Positions 48,577-59,107 of a DNA stretch of 64,000 bases are shown here, one piece after another (the first letter of the stretch is position 1; every line of letters starts with the position of its first letter). Position numbers and translations under genes: made by a program. Origin of the DNA: Candidatus Izemoplasma sp. (GTDB lineage Bacteria; Bacillota_I; Bacilli_A; Izemoplasmatales; Izemoplasmataceae); contig JAXKVY010000001.1 of NCBI GenBank assembly GCA_036172455.1, forward strand, positions 372,001-436,000, written 5' to 3'. The notes below the pieces were generated by a model. That model did no database searches. It was not told the origin of the DNA and worked only from the letters and a program-made list of their open reading frames with translations.

Positions 48577-49812
48577 TTACAATATCATATTATCTTTGAG
48601 AGGGAGACGGATAATAAAGGTTGATCCTTTATCAATTTCAGACTCTACTGTAATTGAGCCCCCATGACGTTGAATCACGTTCTTACTAATGCTTAATCCT
48701 AATCCACTGCCACCTGTTTTTCGACTACGTGTCTTATCCACACGATAAAAGCGTTTAAAAATTCGTTCAATATTATGCTCTTCAATGCCAATACCTGTAT
48801 CACTGATCTTAATCACATAGTTCTCATCTTCGACAGAACCTTCGATAAAAATAGATCCTTGGTCTGTATAGTTAATCGCATTATTAATCAGATTGGTTAA
48901 TACTTGTCTAATTTTGTAAGGATCAATTAACAATGATGCCGGTTGCACTGTAATACTATGAGATAGGTTTTTTTTGTCCATTAAACGGTTAAGACGTGTA
49001 TAAGTCTCATTTAGGGCCTCGTGTATAGGTGTTTTTATCAGTTCTAATTCATAATCCACACGATCCATCTGAGCGATGGTCATCAAGTCCTTCAATAAGC
49101 GTTCCATCCGTAGTGACTCTTCTTGAATAAGCTCTAAAAATTCATTACGTTTGTCAACGTCAATGTCTTGGTCCCGTAATAATATTTCCGAGAATCCTTT
49201 AATGGTAGAAAGCGGTGTCTTTAACTCATGTGAGACATCGGCAGTAAATTGTTTTTGATATTTTTCGGCATTTTTTAAAATGGTTATGTCATGAATAATC
49301 ACAAAACACCCTTTAAATATTTTATTTTCATAAAGGGGGGTTGCAATTAAATCATAATCCGCACCATTATATACAATTTGACGACGCAACTTTGATTCTA
49401 ATATATATGAATGATGAACAAATTCATGTAGTTTTTCTATTGATTTTAATGCATCATACGACTTGTGATATAAATCGAGTCCAAAATAATCTTTTAAATC
49501 CTTATTTGCGAGTTGAATCATCCCTGTTTCATCAACCATTAAAAGACCAAAACTAAACGAATCAGATAATGACAACACTTGTTCTAAAGTTGCCTTTTTC
49601 TCTTGAATCGATTTATCTAAACGGTACTGTAAACTACGTACACTTGTATCTAGGTCTTCTTCTAGTGTTCGGTTTAAATTTTGAATTGATATAATATGAT
49701 AAATCATTAAGCCAATGATAAAAATACCAAGCAAAAAATCGGATGTCAGATACATCGCATGGCCTAATCCAATAGAATAAACAATTATTATTTGAATGAC
49801 ACGTCTTTGCAT
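48577..49812 (-). CDS. phoR: PhoR-type sensor histidine kinase
   Basis: A 411-residue membrane kinase with two N-terminal TM helices ('VIQIIIVYSIGLGHAMYL', 'FLLGIFIIGLMIYHII') and almost no external loop, a coiled linker, a PAS domain ('FGLLMVDETGMIQLANKD'), HisKA ('FTADVSHELKTPLSTIKGF') and HATPase ('TNLINNAINYTDQG', 'KTGGSGLGLSISKNVI'). The missing sensor domain and position after phoU imply signalling through PstSCAB-PhoU. ATG 49810-49812 has AGGTGA. Last gene of the pst operon. Confidence 0.92.
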   Translation of the reverse strand: MQRRVIQIIIVYSIGLGHAMYLTSDFLLGIFIIGLMIYHIISIQNLNRTLEEDLDTSVRSLQYRLDKSIQEKKATLEQVLSLSDSFSFGLLMVDETGMIQLANKDLKDYFGLDLYHKSYDALKSIEKLHEFVHHSYILESKLRRQIVYNGADYDLIATPLYENKIFKGCFVIIHDITILKNAEKYQKQFTADVSHELKTPLSTIKGFSEILLRDQDIDVDKRNEFLELIQEESLRMERLLKDLMTIAQMDRVDYELELIKTPIHEALNETYTRLNRLMDKKNLSHSITVQPASLLIDPYKIRQVLTNLINNAINYTDQGSIFIEGSVEDENYVIKISDTGIGIEEHNIERIFKRFYRVDKTRSRKTGGSGLGLSISKNVIQRHGGSITVESEIDKGSTFIIRLPLKDNMIL

Positions 49813-49828
49813 GGTTGTCACCTCGTTA

Positions 49829-50488
49829 TCAATCAAGTTCTAAGCGTTTAGCATTAACAAGATATACAATATTCTCAGCAATATTGGTTACATGATCTCC
49901 TGCTCGTTCAATCTGTTTTAAGACAAGAATGACACGCATTGCCTCCTCGGCTTCTTCATCTGTTTTCGCTTTTGCAACTCTAATAAATTCTTTAACATAT
50001 TTTTTATATGTAGCATCAATTTCTTCATCTGACTTACTAACTTTTAATGCAGCTTCTACATTGCGTTCTTTAAATGCCTGTACAATCTCTTTCAACATTG
50101 GAATAAAGAGATTGGTTAAATTAACAACCCGTTTAACAAACTGATCATTATCATTTTTAGTTTTGACAAGGTATTTAGCAATATTGACGGCGTAATCAGC
50201 AATCCGTTCTAAGTCATTAGAAATCTTAACAGCCGAAATAATTTGTCTGAGATCGGACGCTACCGGACATTGTTTGGCAATTAGTAAATAGGCATCCACA
50301 TTGATTGATTCTTCAAGACCATTGACAATTTTATCATGATCCATAATATGGTGTGCTAAATCAATATCATTGTCTTCACAAGCAATGACAAGGCGTTTAT
50401 AACTTTCAAGAACTTCTTGACCCATCGCGTCAACGCGATTGTTTAATTCTTCTAGTTCATCATTAAAATGTTTTCGTGTGTTTGTCAT
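49829..50488 (-). CDS. phoU: Phosphate signalling protein PhoU
   Basis: A 219-residue helical protein with two PhoU repeats, each carrying the metal-binding 'ISNDLERIADYAVNIAKY' / 'VLKQIERAGDHVTNIAEN' type motif. It links the PstSCAB transporter to the PhoR kinase and silences the Pho response when phosphate is plentiful. It lies between pstB and phoR in the same operon. Confidence 0.95.
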   Translation of the reverse strand: MTNTRKHFNDELEELNNRVDAMGQEVLESYKRLVIACEDNDIDLAHHIMDHDKIVNGLEESINVDAYLLIAKQCPVASDLRQIISAVKISNDLERIADYAVNIAKYLVKTKNDNDQFVKRVVNLTNLFIPMLKEIVQAFKERNVEAALKVSKSDEEIDATYKKYVKEFIRVAKAKTDEEAEEAMRVILVLKQIERAGDHVTNIAENIVYLVNAKRLELD

Positions 50489-50502: not shown

Positions 50503-51258
50503 CTATCCAAAGCGTCCAGTGATATAGTCTTCTGTTTTTTGATTTTTAGGTTGTGTAAATATTGTATCAGTAGAATCTACTTCAATCAACTCTCCCATTA
50601 AAAAGAATGCGGTTTTATCACTTATACGTGCTGCTTGCTGCATCGAGTGTGTCACAATTACAATTGTATAATCTTGTTTAAGGTCATTCATGAGTTCTTC
50701 TATTTTCAATGTCGCAATAGGATCAAGTGCACTGGTAGGTTCATCCATTAAGATTACTTCTGGTTCCATGGCTATTGCTCTTGCAATACATAGCCGTTGT
50801 TGTTGTCCCCCACTTAAGCCCATCGCACTGTCATTTAGACGATCCTTTACTTCGTCAATTAACGCGGCCTTTTCTAAACTTGTTTGCACGATTTCATCAA
50901 GACGCTTTTTATCCTTAATCCCTTGACATCTTGGTCCGTAAGCAATGTTATCATAAATGCTCATTGGAAATGGATTAGGATTTTGAAATACCATCCCTAC
51001 TTTTGTGCGGAGGCCTATAACATCATAATCTCGGTCATAAATATCATTATCATGATAATCGACATCTCCCATAATTTTACATCCTTCAATTAAATCATTC
51101 ATCCGATTTAAACATCTTAAAAACGTTGATTTTCCACACCCTGATGGTCCAATTAATGCGGTGACTTGGTTTTTTTCAATTTCCAAAGATATATTTTTTA
51201 ATGCTTGAAACTTCCCATAGAATAGATCTAAGTTCTCTATTTTAAATACAGTTTTCAT
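50503..51258 (-). CDS. pstB: Phosphate ABC transporter ATP-binding protein PstB
   Basis: A 251-residue ATPase: Walker A '[19 protein letters not shown]', signature '[17 protein letters not shown]', Walker B '[13 protein letters not shown]', switch His 'VTHSM'. The 'RCLNRMNDL' segment is diagnostic for PstB. It energises PstCA. Confidence 0.97.
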
Positions 51259-51270
51259 ATTATCATTCCT

Positions 51271-52473
51271 TTATTCATAACGTTTTTTAAAACGCATTGA
51301 GATTAGTTTAACAGAGATATTTAAGACAAGTACAATCAGTAAAATTACAACAGCAATCGTACTTGCTAATTGAATGTTGGCTGGTTCATCTGACATTAAA
51401 GACCAGATATGAACAGCTAAGGTTGTTGATTTTCCAAAGATTGAAATATCATCTTTAACTGCTGTCCCGATTGCAAATATAAGCGCTGCGGACTCTCCAA
51501 TAATACGTCCAATCGCAAGCAATGTAGCAGTTAAAATCCCAGGCAATGCATTCGGTAAGACGACTTTAAAAGTTGTTTGTGTATGATTCGCACCTAGTGC
51601 AAGTGAAGCATTTCGTAATGCATCTGGAACCACTTTTAACGATTCTTCTGTTGATCGAATTATGACTGGTAACAAGATAACACCAAGTGTTAGACTTCCT
51701 GAAATTAAGTTTCCACTTGTGGCGCTAGTGTATCGTACGGTTAAGGGAACAAACACTGCGAGACCCATCAATCCAAAGATAATGCTTGGGACACCTGTTA
51801 ATACTTCAACCATACTTCTTAATGTATTCGTGATTCTATTTTTCGGTGCAAATTCATTGAGGTAAATGGCTGTAAAGATCCCAATTGGTAAACTAAATAG
51901 TAAACTCATACCAATCACATATAATGTTGTTATAATTGATCCTCTAATACCGCCCCCTAGAGATGTAAATACAATCTCTCTAAAATTATCTGATGCATTA
52001 AGTTCGTTAATCATGTATTCTGCCCCATAGATTGGTAAAGCGGATGCTTTATCTTCAAACTTAATGGCAGTGACAATATTACCTACTTTAATTCCAAAAT
52101 TTTCTGTTGTGGGGTTGTTTTTATCATTTAAAGATTGCATTGGTGAATCTTTTGCGATATAAACGACGCGTATAACATTTTTCCCTTCGCGGTTTTCCGT
52201 ATCTTCAAAGGCAATGCCCCATCGATCGGAGTAATACATATTATCTTCAAGTGTATCAGGCGCTTCGGTTGTTGAATACGTTATATCACCTTCAATATCT
52301 GCATTATAGTATTTCTCGTGATAGTCATTAACTAGTAATCCAAAGTCAAGTAAATCTGAGCCGTTACGAAACACATAAATAAATATCATTGACAAGGCTA
52401 TAACAGCAATCGATGAGGCCACGTAAGTTAATGCCTGATATAAAATATCTATTTTTTTACGTCTATTTGACAT
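51271..52473 (-). CDS. pstA: Phosphate ABC transporter permease PstA with an extra extracytoplasmic segment
   Basis: Membrane permease of about 400 residues against 280-300 for most PstA. TM1 is near residues 15-37; the permease core with 'GGIRGSIITTLYVIGMSLLF' and the EAA-like loop 'ALRNASLALGANHTQTTFKV' begins only after about residue 168. The intervening 130 residues are hydrophilic and include a PDZ-like pattern ('VIRVVYIAKDSPMQSL', 'FGIKVGNIVTAIKF', 'REIVFTSLGGG'). The second ATG (52471-52473) fits the ribosome site better. It overlaps the pstC end. Confidence 0.92.
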   Translation of the reverse strand: MSNRRKKIDILYQALTYVASSIAVIALSMIFIYVFRNGSDLLDFGLLVNDYHEKYYNADIEGDITYSTTEAPDTLEDNMYYSDRWGIAFEDTENREGKNVIRVVYIAKDSPMQSLNDKNNPTTENFGIKVGNIVTAIKFEDKASALPIYGAEYMINELNASDNFREIVFTSLGGGIRGSIITTLYVIGMSLLFSLPIGIFTAIYLNEFAPKNRITNTLRSMVEVLTGVPSIIFGLMGLAVFVPLTVRYTSATSGNLISGSLTLGVILLPVIIRSTEESLKVVPDALRNASLALGANHTQTTFKVVLPNALPGILTATLLAIGRIIGESAALIFAIGTAVKDDISIFGKSTTLAVHIWSLMSDEPANIQLASTIAVVILLIVLVLNISVKLISMRFKKRYE

Positions 52474-53428
52474 CGACATTACCTACTTTCCGTTTAACAA
52501 AATTCAGTGTAATATTCGTTATTAAGATAACAATCATCAATACAATACCCACACTAAACCGTATATCATAATCAATACCAACTGTTTCTTTTAATCCTTG
52601 TAGCATCGTTGATGTCAGTGTGGATGTAATCTGGAAGAACCCAAGAGATGGACCACTTCTTGCATTCCCCGCAACTAGTGAAACCGCAGTGGCTTCTCCT
52701 AATGCACGACCAATCCCTAAAATAGCGGCGGTGAAAATACCAGACTTTGCACTGGTTAAAACAACCTTAAAATTCGTTTGCGTCTTGGTTGCCCCGAGGG
52801 CTAAAGAGCCATGAATAATATCTTTATTCACACTTCTTATCGCAACCTCACTCAAGGCTGTAATAGTGGGTAAAATCATCAGTGAGAGAACTAACACTGT
52901 TGCTAGAACACTGTTTCCTCCTTTAGATTGTACACCAAATATTTTCGCTAAGTTATAGACAAACGTTAAGATTAATCCACTTCCAAATAATCCATATACA
53001 ATTGATGGGATTGCAGCGAGTAACTCTACAACAGTCCGCATCACTTCAGCCAATTTCTTTGGCGCAATACGCGCAATAAACAAGGCCGTTAACACCCCAA
53101 TCGGTAATGAAATTAACAGTGATAAGAATGCAATATATAGGGTATTAATAATAATGAACCCGACACCATAGAGGTTAGACACAAATGCTCTTCCTTCAAG
53201 CCAGGTTGTCCCAGTTAAGAACCGCCATAAATTGACACGTCCAATACCATCATTATCTGTCACAAAGGGAATTACTCCTTCTGCGGTGACAAATACTATA
53301 ATAATGATGATAAATGACGCACTAATAATTGTGGCAAGTAAAAAGAATGCCTTGATAATGAAGTCAATCACATCATTTTTAGTGTGTATGTGTAGTTTCG
53401 ATTGTACTTTTTTTAATATATTAGTCAT
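52463..53428 (-). CDS. pstC: Phosphate ABC transporter permease PstC
   Basis: A 321-residue permease, six TM helices, with the cytoplasmic loop 'HGSLALGATKTQTNFKVVL' and 'IGRALGEATAVSLVAGN' typical of PstC. It pairs with PstA. AAGGAGG precedes the start; a hairpin separates it from pstS, probably reducing its level relative to the binding protein. Confidence 0.95.
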   Translation of the reverse strand: MTNILKKVQSKLHIHTKNDVIDFIIKAFFLLATIISASFIIIIIVFVTAEGVIPFVTDNDGIGRVNLWRFLTGTTWLEGRAFVSNLYGVGFIIINTLYIAFLSLLISLPIGVLTALFIARIAPKKLAEVMRTVVELLAAIPSIVYGLFGSGLILTFVYNLAKIFGVQSKGGNSVLATVLVLSLMILPTITALSEVAIRSVNKDIIHGSLALGATKTQTNFKVVLTSAKSGIFTAAILGIGRALGEATAVSLVAGNARSGPSLGFFQITSTLTSTMLQGLKETVGIDYDIRFSVGIVLMIVILITNITLNFVKRKVGNVDVK

Positions 53429-53517: not shown

Positions 53518-54444
53518 TTAGTCTAGGAGTTCTTCCCAAGTTGTTACTTCTCCACTATAAATATTTTTAAGATCCGCGGCTGTGACACTGTTTAATTCAT
53601 TGTTTAGATTAACAATTACGACAATGGCATCCCATGCTAATTGGCCTTGTGTTCCAGCTTCGCCAGCTTCAGAATCTTTGAATGGACGTGATGCAAATCC
53701 AATATGTTTGTAGTTGTCACCATCTTTTTCACTACCTTGTGTCCGTTTGAATCCATCTGATGATCCAGTATGATCATGCTCAGGAACAAAGTTTCCACAC
53801 TTTGGTGCAAATGCTGATGATAATGCTTCAGCGATTTTTTGAATAGAGTCTGATCCACCAAAGCGAATTACGACATCACTGTTGTCTTGAGCACATACAG
53901 GATGTTCTGCTGCAATATCATCCCAAGTTTCCGTGCTTTCTAATGCAACAGCACCTTCATTGGTAATAATATCTGCGCCATCTGTTGTTCCCATGAATGC
54001 TACAAATGCTAATACAATATTTTTTTCTGTTTCATTTGCATAATCATCCATCGCCCGTGTCACATAATTAAATGGACGTTTTAAGTCATAGGTGTTATTT
54101 ACTACATTAGGTACCGAAGGTTCTACTCCGTTAAATGCTAAGCCTTTGACATCATCATTTAATGTTGCTAATGAGATATACCCAATACCATACTCATCGG
54201 TTGTGATCGAGTTCAAAATACCTGTATTGTCTTTAATAACAAATCCATCGACTAACACACTGTCATCTTCTTCTGCTTCATCAAATCCAATACCACCCAT
54301 AAATCCGGCACGTGTACCGCTTGATGTATCTCGTGTATAAACAGTGATGTTGTTTGTTGAATCCCATCCTGCTTCGGTATTACCACATGCACTTAATGTC
54401 AGTGCAAATACAAATACTGTTACTAATACTACTAACTTTTTCAT
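53518..54444 (-). CDS. pstS: Phosphate-binding lipoprotein PstS, halves in circularly permuted order
   Basis: A 308-residue lipoprotein (lipobox 'LTLSACGN', Cys20). The usual second half of PstS comes first: 'NITVYTRDTSSGTRAGF' (residues 32-48), 'EYGIGYISLATL', 'KRPFNYVTRAMDD'. The usual first half comes last: 'IRFGGSDSIQKIAEALSS' (193-210), 'HIGFASRPFKDSEA' (247-260), 'AWDAIVVIVNLNNEL', ending 'NIYSGEVTTWEELLD' (294-308), which normally leads straight into the segment found here at residue 32. All phosphate-loop motifs are present. It is first gene of pstSCAB-phoU-phoR, behind a PhoP box. Confidence 0.93.
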   Translation of the reverse strand: MKKLVVLVTVFVFALTLSACGNTEAGWDSTNNITVYTRDTSSGTRAGFMGGIGFDEAEEDDSVLVDGFVIKDNTGILNSITTDEYGIGYISLATLNDDVKGLAFNGVEPSVPNVVNNTYDLKRPFNYVTRAMDDYANETEKNIVLAFVAFMGTTDGADIITNEGAVALESTETWDDIAAEHPVCAQDNSDVVIRFGGSDSIQKIAEALSSAFAPKCGNFVPEHDHTGSSDGFKRTQGSEKDGDNYKHIGFASRPFKDSEAGEAGTQGQLAWDAIVVIVNLNNELNSVTAADLKNIYSGEVTTWEELLD

Positions 54445-54597: not shown

Positions 54598-55263
54598 CTA
54601 TACAATTTTGTATCCAATGCCACGTACTGTTTTTATAAAGTTTGCGTCCGGATCAATTTTTTCTCTCAGTTTAAATATATGGACATCGACAACTCGAGAA
54701 TCTCCATCATAACTGAATCCCCACAGATTGGTTAGAAGTTGATTTCGTGATAATGCTTTCCCTTTATTCTTTAAAAGATATTGTAATAATTCAAACTCTT
54801 TAAGTGTTACTTCAATCTTTTCATCGTTTCGAAATACTTCATAACTGCTGTTAACAATCGTTAAGTCATTGTAGTGTATTACGTCATCATTGTTCATCAA
54901 TCCTTGACGGCGTAATCCTGCCTTAATTCGGGCTAGAAGTTCTCTTGGTGAAAAAGGTTTTTTTATATAATCATCAGCTCCGACATCAAAACCTTTAATG
55001 ACATTATACTCATCATCTAATGCAGTAAGCATAATGATATATACTTCATTACCTTCATCGCGAAGCTTTTTACATATCTCCATACCATCCATATTCGGAA
55101 GCATTAAATCGAGTAATAAAATGTCAAAATGTTTTGTACTGGCTTTTTTATATCCTTCAAAGCCATCTAATGCTGAATCGACTTCATATCCCATTTGTGA
55201 AAGATCGTACTCAATCATCCGTTGAATTGCTTGTTCATCTTCAATGATTAATATCTTTGCCAT
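54598..55263 (-). CDS. phoB: PhoB/PhoP-type response regulator
   Basis: A 221-residue OmpR-family regulator: receiver domain with the phosphorylated Asp in 'DILLLDLMLPNMDG' and conserved Lys in 'DDYIKKPFSP', and a winged-helix DNA-binding domain ('LKEFELLQYLLKNKGKALSR' ... 'VDVHIFKLREKI'). It would bind the PhoP boxes seen nearby and pair with PhoR. ATG 55261-55263 has GAGGTG. It is transcribed apart from pst, between pstS and the Na/phosphate symporter gene. Confidence 0.93.
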   Translation of the reverse strand: MAKILIIEDEQAIQRMIEYDLSQMGYEVDSALDGFEGYKKASTKHFDILLLDLMLPNMDGMEICKKLRDEGNEVYIIMLTALDDEYNVIKGFDVGADDYIKKPFSPRELLARIKAGLRRQGLMNNDDVIHYNDLTIVNSSYEVFRNDEKIEVTLKEFELLQYLLKNKGKALSRNQLLTNLWGFSYDGDSRVVDVHIFKLREKIDPDANFIKTVRGIGYKIV

Positions 55264-55282
55264 AGCTAACACCTCATATATT

Positions 55283-55346: not shown

Positions 55347-57053
55347 TTAAACTTCGTAATCTAATTCTTCGTTGTAATAGTATTCCTGTGTAACGTTAAT
55401 AACAATATTGTTGCAGTGATCCCCGATACGTTCAATGTTAGATAAAATATCGACATATAATCCATCCTGTGTTTCTAATGCCAACTTATTATTAATCCGC
55501 ATAATATGACGTTTTCTGTTTTTGATAACTAAGCGATCAATAACATCTTCACGATCCATTACTTTTTTCGCGCTAATAGCGTCTTGTGTGTCAAATGTCT
55601 CAATCGTTAAAGCGAGGGTTTCGCTGACTACATCATATAACGTACGTAATTCATTTAATGCATCTTCGCTTAATATAATCTTGTCTTCGTAGCGGTTCTC
55701 AAAGAATTGAAGTAAGTTCGTACAATGGTCGCCAATACGCTCAAAGTCCCTTATGGTATCAACAAATGCAGCTTGATCTGAAGATGCTTGCTTATCTAAA
55801 TCATTTTGCGCTATTTTAACTAAATAGTCATGCGCTTTTTTATCAATGGTATCTAACATTTCTTCAATCTGCATTCCATTTTCAAATAATTTTTTATCTT
55901 CTTTGAAAGAGTATTTCACTGTATATTCAAACATTTGTTCAGTCAAACGCCCCATATTAAGAACAACTTTTTTAGCACTCTCAAGAGCTAATGTTGGTGC
56001 TTCATCAATTAGGTCATCATTTAACGCATCAATATCAACATTTAACGCATCAATATCAACATTGATTAATCCATCTTCCCCAGGGATGATGAGCATTGAT
56101 AACTTAACCAGCTGGTTAATAAACCAAAACATAATAAAGGTATTTATTATATTAAATCCCATATGTGCAAAACTTATCGTCATTGCGGCATCTTCGCCAT
56201 TTAGAAAAGTATCTTGTAAATATTGAATTATTGCTGTATAAGGTCTCAAAAATGTCATAAATACAAAACTTCCTACAACGTTGAAAATAACATGTACCGC
56301 CGCTGTTCTTTTTGCTGCAATACTTCCACCTAAAGACGCTAATACAGCTGTAACAGTCGTTCCAATATTATCTCCAAACGTAATGGCTATAGCCCCAATA
56401 AGCGGCACAGCTCCCGTTGTGTACAATTCTTGTAAGATTCCAATAGTTGCACTACTTGATTGGATCGTAGCAGTTGTAGCAGTCCCAACAATAAGGCCTA
56501 AAACAGGGTGTGAAGCGACCACTTCTAACGCATTAGTAAACCAAGGTTGATAAGCAAGCTGTTTTAACGCTCCCCCCATCACATCAAGACCAAAGAACAG
56601 CATACCAAATCCAAGTAATACACCCCCAAATTGACGGTATCGTTTACGCGAACTAAAGAAGACTAAGAAGCTCCCTGCGGCCATAATTGGTAATGCGTAT
56701 GCCTTAATCTTAAGGCCTAATAAAAACGATGTTACAGTCGTGCCAATATTCGCCCCTAAAATAATTCCGATTGCCTGAGGCAATGTCATTAACCCCGCAC
56801 GAACAAGTCCGATCGTTTATGCCGTTGTCCCAGAAGACGATTGTATGAGTCCTGTAATAACAATCCCAACAATAATACCTTTAATAGGTGTGTTAGTTGA
56901 TTTTTCTATAATTAATTTTAACTTATTCCCAGCAATAGCTTTTAAAGAGTCTCCCATAAGATTAATCCCATAAAGGAAAATCCCTAATCCTCCCAAAATT
57001 TGAAAAATGGTGATCTGCCAATCGATAGGCGTCACATCTGCTAGTAAAATCAT
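55347..57053 (-). pseudogene. nptA: Na/phosphate cotransporter (NptA/YjbB-like) interrupted by one in-frame TAA
   Basis: The frame from ATG 57051-57053 (AAGGAGG) encodes 78 residues ending 'GLIQSSSGTTA', then TAA (56817-56819), then continues in the same frame with 'TIGLVRAGLMTLPQAIGIIL' through the second QSSS repeat ('TATIQSSSATIGIL') to a C-terminal PhoU-like domain ('IRDFERIGDHCTNLLQFF', 'ILSNIERIGDHCNNIVINV'), 568 codons overall. The first half lies inside the conserved QSSS substrate site. Everything else looks intact. It may be recent inactivation, read-through, re-initiation at 56789 or a sequence error. Confidence 0.85.
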
Positions 57054-57083
57054 CAGTTTCCTCCTTAAGTGAATACCATACAA

Positions 57084-57171: not shown

Positions 57172-57193
57172 AAAAAAAGGACTTACTGTCCTT
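57172..57193 (-). terminator. Terminator of the tandem nano-RNase operon
   Basis: AAGGAC/GTCCTT stem with five-base loop, T7 on the minus strand. The stop codon of the second nrnA gene lies in the hairpin. Confidence 0.82.
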
Positions 57194-58148
57194 CTTTGTA
57201 AGCTTTAGCAAGTTTATCTGCATCTTCTAATAACAAGTCTGTACGATCCCAAGTTCCTAAACTAGCACCACTTGCCATCGCATGGCCACCACCATCATAT
57301 TTGGCAGCTAGTTCATTAATTGCAGGCCCTTTTGAACGTAATCGACATCGTACGATTCCTTCTTCATATTCCGCAAAGAGTGCCCAGATTGGACAATCTT
57401 TAAATTTGCCTAATTCATTTACTAAACTTGTTGCTTCTTCTAAATCAACATCAAACTCTTCCAAATATTTTGGCAAGATTTTAAAATAAACAACACCGTT
57501 CTCAGTTTTTTTATAGTTTTGTAATACAAATCCTTTAAAACGCGTAAAGTTTTCTGTACGGGTATCTAAATAATCATAGACATCTCTAGCATCTAATCCG
57601 GCATCATAAAGCAGGGCTACATTCCGGAAAGTATCTCCATCGACACCGCTATATTTAAAGCGGCCTGTATCGGTTAATATACCAAAGAATAAGGCATCTG
57701 CGGCTTCTTTACTTAAAACATATTCCTCTTTAAACGCATTGTATAAATCAAGAATGATTAAAGCTGCGGCTGGTCGTGATGTATCAATATATTCCACATC
57801 ACCATAGGTTTCAACCTGGATGTGATGATCCATCTTAATTGTTTTTTCACACCGTTTAAATCGTTCATCTCCCATACGCTCAATATTTGCCGTATCAACG
57901 AGTATTCCTAAGGCATTATCAAATACCGTATCATCTTTTAAAACATCGGGTACACCGATATATGAGGTGAAATCGCTCGTTTCACCAACGACGTAGACTG
58001 TTTTATTATCATAACTTGCTTCAATCATATGTTTTAATCCAAATGCTGTCCCAATCGCGTCTCCATCAGGTCTTGCATGAGGAAATACGATAATCGTCTC
58101 ATACCTTGCAATTAAATCATGGATTGTTTGTAATTTTTCTTTATTCAT
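57183..58148 (-). CDS. nrnA: DHH/DHHA1 phosphoesterase, NrnA-like (copy 2)
   Basis: A 321-residue oligoribonuclease/pAp-phosphatase-type enzyme that degrades 2-5-mers of RNA or short DNA. DHH domain motifs 'VFPHARPDGDAIGTAFG' and 'IKMDHHIQVETYGD', and the DHHA1 motif 'KYDGGGHAMASGASLG' are complete. The ATG overlaps the upstream paralogue's stop by 8 bp, with TAGGAG inside that gene. Confidence 0.93.
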   Translation of the reverse strand: MNKEKLQTIHDLIARYETIIVFPHARPDGDAIGTAFGLKHMIEASYDNKTVYVVGETSDFTSYIGVPDVLKDDTVFDNALGILVDTANIERMGDERFKRCEKTIKMDHHIQVETYGDVEYIDTSRPAAALIILDLYNAFKEEYVLSKEAADALFFGILTDTGRFKYSGVDGDTFRNVALLYDAGLDARDVYDYLDTRTENFTRFKGFVLQNYKKTENGVVYFKILPKYLEEFDVDLEEATSLVNELGKFKDCPIWALFAEYEEGIVRCRLRSKGPAINELAAKYDGGGHAMASGASLGTWDRTDLLLEDADKLAKAYKEGQ

Positions 58149-59082
58149 TATTTTGACTCCTAACTATGTGCTGGTGGAGGTCTTCTAGTAACTTAGAGGC
58201 TTCATCTAACGACTTTAAGTTACACCCACACGCTAAAGCATGCCCGCCACCACCGTATTGTTTTGCAACCGCCACAATTGGCGTTGATTTACTTCTTAAT
58301 TCAACCATAACTTCATCGCCATCTTCTGTGAAATTAGCCCATGCATCAATACCTTTAATACCACTCATTTGATTTACCATTGCTCGAGAAACCGTAAATG
58401 TTGAGACGTTAAACATTTCACTAACTTCTTCAGTGTTGGTCATATATGCGATATGGTCTTTAAATATTTTAAAGTTATTAATAAAATACCCTTTAAGTTT
58501 CTTAAAATTCAGTTCTTCAGTATAAAGATGCCCATAAATCCATTGTAGTTTCGCCCCTCTACGAAGTAAAAAGGCTGCGATTTCTAATGTGTCAGCTTGT
58601 GTACTCGGATATAAAAAGCGGCCACTATCGGTGACAATACCAGCGAGAAACGCTGTACTCGCCTGTTCATCAAATCGCAGTTGATAATCTGTCAAAATAT
58701 CAACAATCATTTCAGCACAAGCAATTTTACTTGAATCAATATATGAAATACATTCAATATCAGGCGCGTTTAAGTGATGATCAAGTACGAGTACTTGATC
58801 AGCTAGAGTATAACGATCATCACTAATGAGTCGTTTTACACAGACATCTAGTATAATTGCTAATGCGCCTTCATAAAAACTATCCTCAATCGTATCCATC
58901 TTGCCGAGAAAGTTAAAGACATTTTCATCCCCAACCGCATACACAGATTTCTTAGGATAATTTAATTCAATAACCCTTTTTAACCCCATCTGACTTCCAT
59001 AAGCATCCCCATCTGGATTGTTATGTCGATGAATGATTATTGTATCATACTCTTCAATTAATTTAATCACTTGTTCTTTCAT
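58141..59082 (-). CDS. DHH/DHHA1 phosphoesterase, NrnA-like (copy 1)
   Basis: A 313-residue paralogue of the next gene. Motifs 'IIHRHNNPDGDAYGSQMG', 'LVLDHHLNAPDIEC' and 'QYGGGGHALACGCNL' are complete, so it should be active. The second of two adjacent ATG codons (59080-59082) has the better distance to GAGGTG. The two copies differ widely, so the duplication is old; substrate specialisation (RNA oligomers, pGpG/pApA, pAp) is likely but not readable. Confidence 0.92.
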   Translation of the reverse strand: MKEQVIKLIEEYDTIIIHRHNNPDGDAYGSQMGLKRVIELNYPKKSVYAVGDENVFNFLGKMDTIEDSFYEGALAIILDVCVKRLISDDRYTLADQVLVLDHHLNAPDIECISYIDSSKIACAEMIVDILTDYQLRFDEQASTAFLAGIVTDSGRFLYPSTQADTLEIAAFLLRRGAKLQWIYGHLYTEELNFKKLKGYFINNFKIFKDHIAYMTNTEEVSEMFNVSTFTVSRAMVNQMSGIKGIDAWANFTEDGDEVMVELRSKSTPIVAVAKQYGGGGHALACGCNLKSLDEASKLLEDLHQHIVRSQNNE

Positions 59083-59107
59083 CATTTCACCTCTAAACTA
59101 ACAGTCT

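Follow-up and report, generated by a model that had tools for sequence, protein, structure and literature searches.

Natural circular permutation of substrate-binding proteins is already documented. Treponema pallidum TpMglB-2 (Tp0684) is a circularly permuted sugar-binding lipoprotein (PMC4990184), and the glycine betaine- and molybdate-binding proteins form, together with CysB, a structural permutation family (CPSARST, PMC2395249). The phosphate-binding protein described here resembles the former in being a naturally permuted ABC substrate-binding lipoprotein with relatives in Gram-positives; however, TpMglB-2 has a type I fold and glucose as its ligand, and its permutation added a crossover between the lobes, whereas one has been removed here (PMC4990184). 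It shares with the latter a circular permutation among two-lobed binding proteins, which in that case lies between distant families with different ligands and not within PstS (PMC2395249). The nearest described protein is PstS2 of Streptococcus pneumoniae (SP_2084), solved in 2012 as 4H1X, which has the same permuted order and the same cut, and is collinear with our protein over the mature sequence with 28% identity; unlike the latter, it has a shorter linker and no cysteine pair. No paper describing a permuted PstS, or calling PstS2 permuted, was found among open-access papers, and the string "permut" does not occur in the pneumococcal Pst1/Pst2 paper (PMC4913102) or in the OpuAC paper (PMC2861598). 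The permutation of substrate-binding proteins is not new, and a permuted PstS has been solved as 4H1X; the newer part is a second permutant and a set of tandem genes, presented below.

The gene under study lies in the window, i.e., the whole stretch of 64,000 nucleotides that was analysed, and it is the first gene of an operon with the order pstS-pstC-pstA-pstB-phoU-phoR (Table 1). Location, strand and length of the open reading frame are as given in a preliminary description of this DNA, which also spoke of an otherwise standard pst operon; indeed, PstC, PstA, PstB and PhoU all exceed the curated cut-offs of their families. The open reading frame is intact and encodes a genuine natural circular permutant of PstS, its membership in PstS being supported by the homology of both parts, the fold, the phosphate motif and the gene context.

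Table 1. Coordinates, in the window, of pstS, its parts and the adjoining pst genes.
Feature	Position	Strand	Basis
PhoB/MtrA-type response regulator, upstream of pstS	54598..55272	(-)	matches below equivalog cut-offs
pstS, circularly permuted phosphate-binding lipoprotein, intact, 308 aa	53518..54444	(-)	homology and AF2 model
Lipoprotein signal peptide, lipobox LSAC, lipidated Cys20	54385..54444	(-)	sequence; Cys20 invariant in a 22-row alignment
Residues 32-172: normal second part of PstS (lobe 2 and C-terminal helices of lobe 1); R38-S42-G43-T44	53929..54351	(-)	homology
Residues 173-191: new linker between the former C- and N-termini, modelled as short helices; Cys184	53872..53928	(-)	AF2 model and alignments
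Residues 192-306: normal first part of PstS, ending at the former inter-lobe crossover (TTWEEL); Cys216	53527..53871	(-)	homology
pstC, permease	52463..53428	(-)	TIGR02138 over cut-off
pstA, permease	51271..52479	(-)	TIGR00974 over cut-off
pstB, ATPase	50503..51258	(-)	TIGR00972 over cut-off
phoU	49829..50488	(-)	TIGR02135 over cut-off
PhoR/PnpS-like histidine kinase	48577..49836	(-)	PnpS best match, below cut-off

The swap of the two PstS halves had been proposed from motifs alone, those of the C-terminal part occupying residues 32-165 and those of the N-terminal part residues 193-308, with the cut at the crossover between the lobes; sequence comparison of the halves, structure prediction and comparative genomics agree on both points. 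In a phmmer search of the PDB, the standard PstS of Clostridium perfringens (4q8r) was matched in two swapped stretches, residues 193-306 aligning with 6-113 of the chain (i-E 1.4e-10) and residues 33-166 with 120-243 (i-E 3.2e-11). Two stretches per protein were the rule for the standard structures 4q8r, 4gd5 and 1twy, and in the alignments shown these stretches are swapped; 4h1x, by contrast, gave a single collinear match, from residues 30-306 to 8-264. Thus, each half is homologous to the C. perfringens protein (4GD5, 4Q8R; standard order, TIGR02136-like), with which the window protein shares the phosphate motif, but the halves stand in the other order and the two inter-lobe crossovers of that protein are reduced to one.

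The family models behave accordingly, since both assume the standard order and are matched only in pieces. PF12849 (Pfam) scores 70.7 bits against a cut-off of 27, with the best stretch from residues 191-305 to profile positions 8-125; TIGR02136 (NCBIfam) is matched in two stretches, the best from residues 185-306 to positions 34-155, and although the E-value of the whole protein is 9.8e-33, its score stays below the curated cut-off of 206.6, so that permuted PstS proteins may be missed or called partial by this model. The standard order of the two parts, which the family models assume and which is unnecessary for function, is absent here, and the protein is therefore filed as a permuted PstS variant and not as a standard PstS. 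It shares with the permuted family of 4H1X the order of second part before first part, the cut at the first crossover and collinearity over the whole length, and is an ordinary member of that variant.

An AlphaFold2 model of the protein was obtained with a pLDDT of 90.9 and a pTM of 0.82. Foldseek returned 4h1x as the sole strong full-length match (E 9.7e-24), and VIA-align superposed model residues 31-307 on it with Z 27.2 and rmsd 3.4 over 252 aligned residues. The standard proteins 4gd5, 4q8r, 1twy and 4lat aligned over about 133 residues, largely in the first half of the model, with Z of 9-11. Other proteins that span the model in VIA-align, such as OpuAC (Z about 11), share its general fold but have unrelated ligands; among phosphate-binding proteins, an end-to-end match was given in both searches by 4H1X only. 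The whole model thus fits 4H1X and its first half fits standard PstS, while the second half is matched by sequence. The preliminary description had considered that the halves might fail to form the two-lobed PstS fold; the structure prediction it asked for yielded that fold with confidence, and this objection falls.

The chain is cut at the first crossover between the lobes, where standard proteins read NWxEVGGxDxxI-V and the two parts are separated by a median of 6 residues; in the window's group, permuted proteins end about 2 residues beyond the N-terminal part. The earlier statement that the final W-EELLD runs directly into the segment now at the beginning was slightly loose, as about six residues (GGxDxx) follow W-x-E-(V/L) in standard proteins. 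In the type II layout of binding proteins, a cut at this crossover leaves each lobe contiguous; because the cut is placed there, each lobe of the window protein is continuous in sequence and the chain passes a single time from one lobe to the other, around RPFNYVTR.

The residues of the phosphate site are conserved. R38, S42, G43, S198, S200, S228, S252 and D272 are invariant in all 148 distinct permuted proteins collected, and T44 is kept in 147 of them. R38, S42, G43 and T44 correspond to the phosphate motif RxxxSGT in PstS of E. coli, the protein from which the role of this motif and of the other site residues is known. These residues predict that the window protein binds phosphate. It is very probably the phosphate-binding component of a standard Pst transporter, a PstS with a natural circular permutation at the first crossover between the lobes. 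A permuted paralogue that does not bind phosphate and acts instead as a sensor or an adhesin is highly improbable, given that no other PstS was found in the genome, that the gene lies within the pst operon and that the residues of the binding motif are invariant.

As a phosphate-binding PstS, the lipid-anchored protein would most likely work as an ordinary Venus flytrap: R38, S42, G43 and T44 of one lobe and S198, S200, S228, S252 and D272 of the other would close on phosphate, which would then be handed to PstC-PstA. The membrane anchor would be attached near the hinge, and a linker of about 19 residues would join the old termini, probably pinned by a Cys184-Cys216 disulfide. Of the two cysteines previously placed near the new linker, Cys184 does lie in it, whereas Cys216 belongs to the former N-terminal half. 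Among the 148 permuted proteins both cysteines occur in 29, Cys216 alone in 6 and neither in 113; Cys184 never occurs without Cys216, a pattern that points to a disulfide holding the linker in place.

Unlike S. pneumoniae, which also has a standard-order PstS1 (4EXL/4LAT), the genome of the window organism yielded one PstS: a search for a second one, including one of standard order, found none at E <= 1 in the 1.69 Mb assembly (99% complete). The permuted order is common among other genomes. In a set of 41 genomes, made up of the organism's own and those of 40 relatives from within its order, 24 match the window protein, all collinearly; the same 24 were recovered with TIGR02136, as two half-matches per gene with the C-terminal part upstream of the N-terminal part. 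The sole standard-order TIGR02136 match in this set is a separate membrane-anchored protein in one relative (G004).

A wider census counted full-length permuted matches to a profile (A1) built from 22 permuted proteins; standard-order proteins appeared in these searches as two half-matches in the opposite order. Within the window's phylum, at least 54 of 295 genomes have the permuted arrangement; for the order of Marinilactibacillus, the class of Cellulosilyticum and the phylum of Gordonibacter the corresponding minima are 50 of 198, 48 of 245 and 5 of 198. At least 150 sampled genomes of Mollicute-type bacteria, Lactobacillales, Clostridia and Coriobacteriia share it. Among the 201 distinct ORFs of the loci retrieved, 148 have the permuted and 48 the standard order, 4 are tandems and 1 is a second permutant. 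G267 (L110 and L109) and G578 each possess a PstS of either order and are suited to direct comparison.

This distribution bears on the possibility that two partial pstS genes were joined by an artefact of assembly, as the preliminary description had considered, or of annotation. The window genome is in draft form, with 10 contigs, but the same order is found in all 24 PstS-bearing genomes at the order level, in the complete chromosome CP076020.1 (L006) of a relative, in 148 distinct ORFs and in one crystal structure; an artefact has a vanishingly small probability, and assembly error was rejected because the order is kept in independent genomes. The question of how widespread the arrangement is, raised in the same description, is answered by well over 100 genomes, and the notable fold variant announced there is a real permutant, but less singular than implied, as the arrangement is common and was already present in 4H1X.

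The history of the permutation was analysed on a tree of 98 rows, built with an IQ-TREE mixture model after the two halves had been put in one order. The permuted proteins fall into four groups, separated from one another by standard-order proteins, and 4 changes of order are required (2-4 over the bootstrap trees; mean of about 27 when shuffled). Forcing all permuted proteins into one clade costs 43.6 log-likelihood units, and linker lengths vary between groups; these results favor several independent origins of the permuted order at the same crossover. However, the AU test rejects neither the single clade (p 0.060) nor the union of the two main permuted groups (p 0.086), groups A and B (p 0.51) and groups C and D (p 0.465) can each be joined freely, and the tree has long branches. 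Several origins are accordingly a tentative reading, somewhat less probable than not, and the number of origins may be anything from one to several.

A different origin, by domain recombination that fused half-genes of separate PstS lineages rather than by permutation of one gene, could be imagined from the fact that the two halves are separable in sequence and that their trees are poorly resolved, but is very unlikely: the trees of the N-half and of the C-half give the same permuted groups, and in each of the two trees a single branch sets the window's group apart (SH-aLRT 99 and 96). No sign of mixing of half-genes between lineages was seen. DNA repeats at the halves, as a mark of a recent event, were also looked for, and only matches of chance length were found.

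Four relatives, G055 (L103), G152 (L104), G183 (L105) and G201 (L106), encode an in-frame tandem of the permuted PstS, of 593-678 aa, whose internal N1-C2 junction yields, midway along the chain, a PstS of standard order once more. The two copies of the tandems are mutual sisters on the tree; the tandems are therefore recent duplications of an already permuted gene, and were rejected as intermediates of the original permutation. A further genome, G272 (L249:4343-5272, (-)), encodes a second PstS permutant, opened at the other inter-lobe crossover. This protein has its own signal peptide, followed by the C-terminal helices of lobe 1, the N-terminal part, the restored first crossover and lobe 2, and ends in RPFMFVTRY. 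The gene belongs to an intact pst operon: downstream of it lie pstC-pstA-pstB-phoU and a response regulator, assigned by their sequence resemblance to the genes of the window. The model of the protein is confident and two-lobed (pLDDT 91.4); residues 86-309 align with 5-214 of the standard 4q8r (Z 23.6) and residues 32-203 with 140-291 of 4h1x (Z 13.4), and no chain in its list of structural matches covers the whole order.

G272 and G183 belong to the same genus (group code g82) and lie near each other on the tree, with weak support (94/64, an open fork). The G272 protein would be the product expected if a tandem permuted gene had been truncated at its two ends, and, because both tandem and re-permuted relatives exist, duplication followed by truncation is a likely route to permutation. 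That PstS has been permuted repeatedly in nature, always at an inter-lobe crossover, with one genus-level lineage containing both a tandem (G183, L250) and a second permutant (G272), is a reading we consider evenly balanced; if true, permutation by duplication and truncation would be visible in living relatives. PstS, a core nutrient-binding protein, tolerates a cut at either crossover in natural operons, and is thereby a natural test of how much the hinge connections and the position of the anchor matter to a substrate-binding protein. With its tandem and re-permuted relatives, the model that circular permutation proceeds through duplication can be tested directly.

Two further observations concern other genes of the window. 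The gene of a Na/Pi-cotransporter with a PhoU-like C-terminal part (window 55347-57083, (-)) contains one in-frame TAA at about 56817-56819 and is open in the related loci L002-L005, in a comparison that covered part of the loci; it is either a pseudogene or the result of a sequencing error, and with this gene interrupted the organism may import phosphate mainly through Pst. At 57183-59085 (-), two adjacent tandem genes, which share a few bases where they meet, encode, from reading of the sequence, putative DHH-type (NrnA-like) phosphoesterases.
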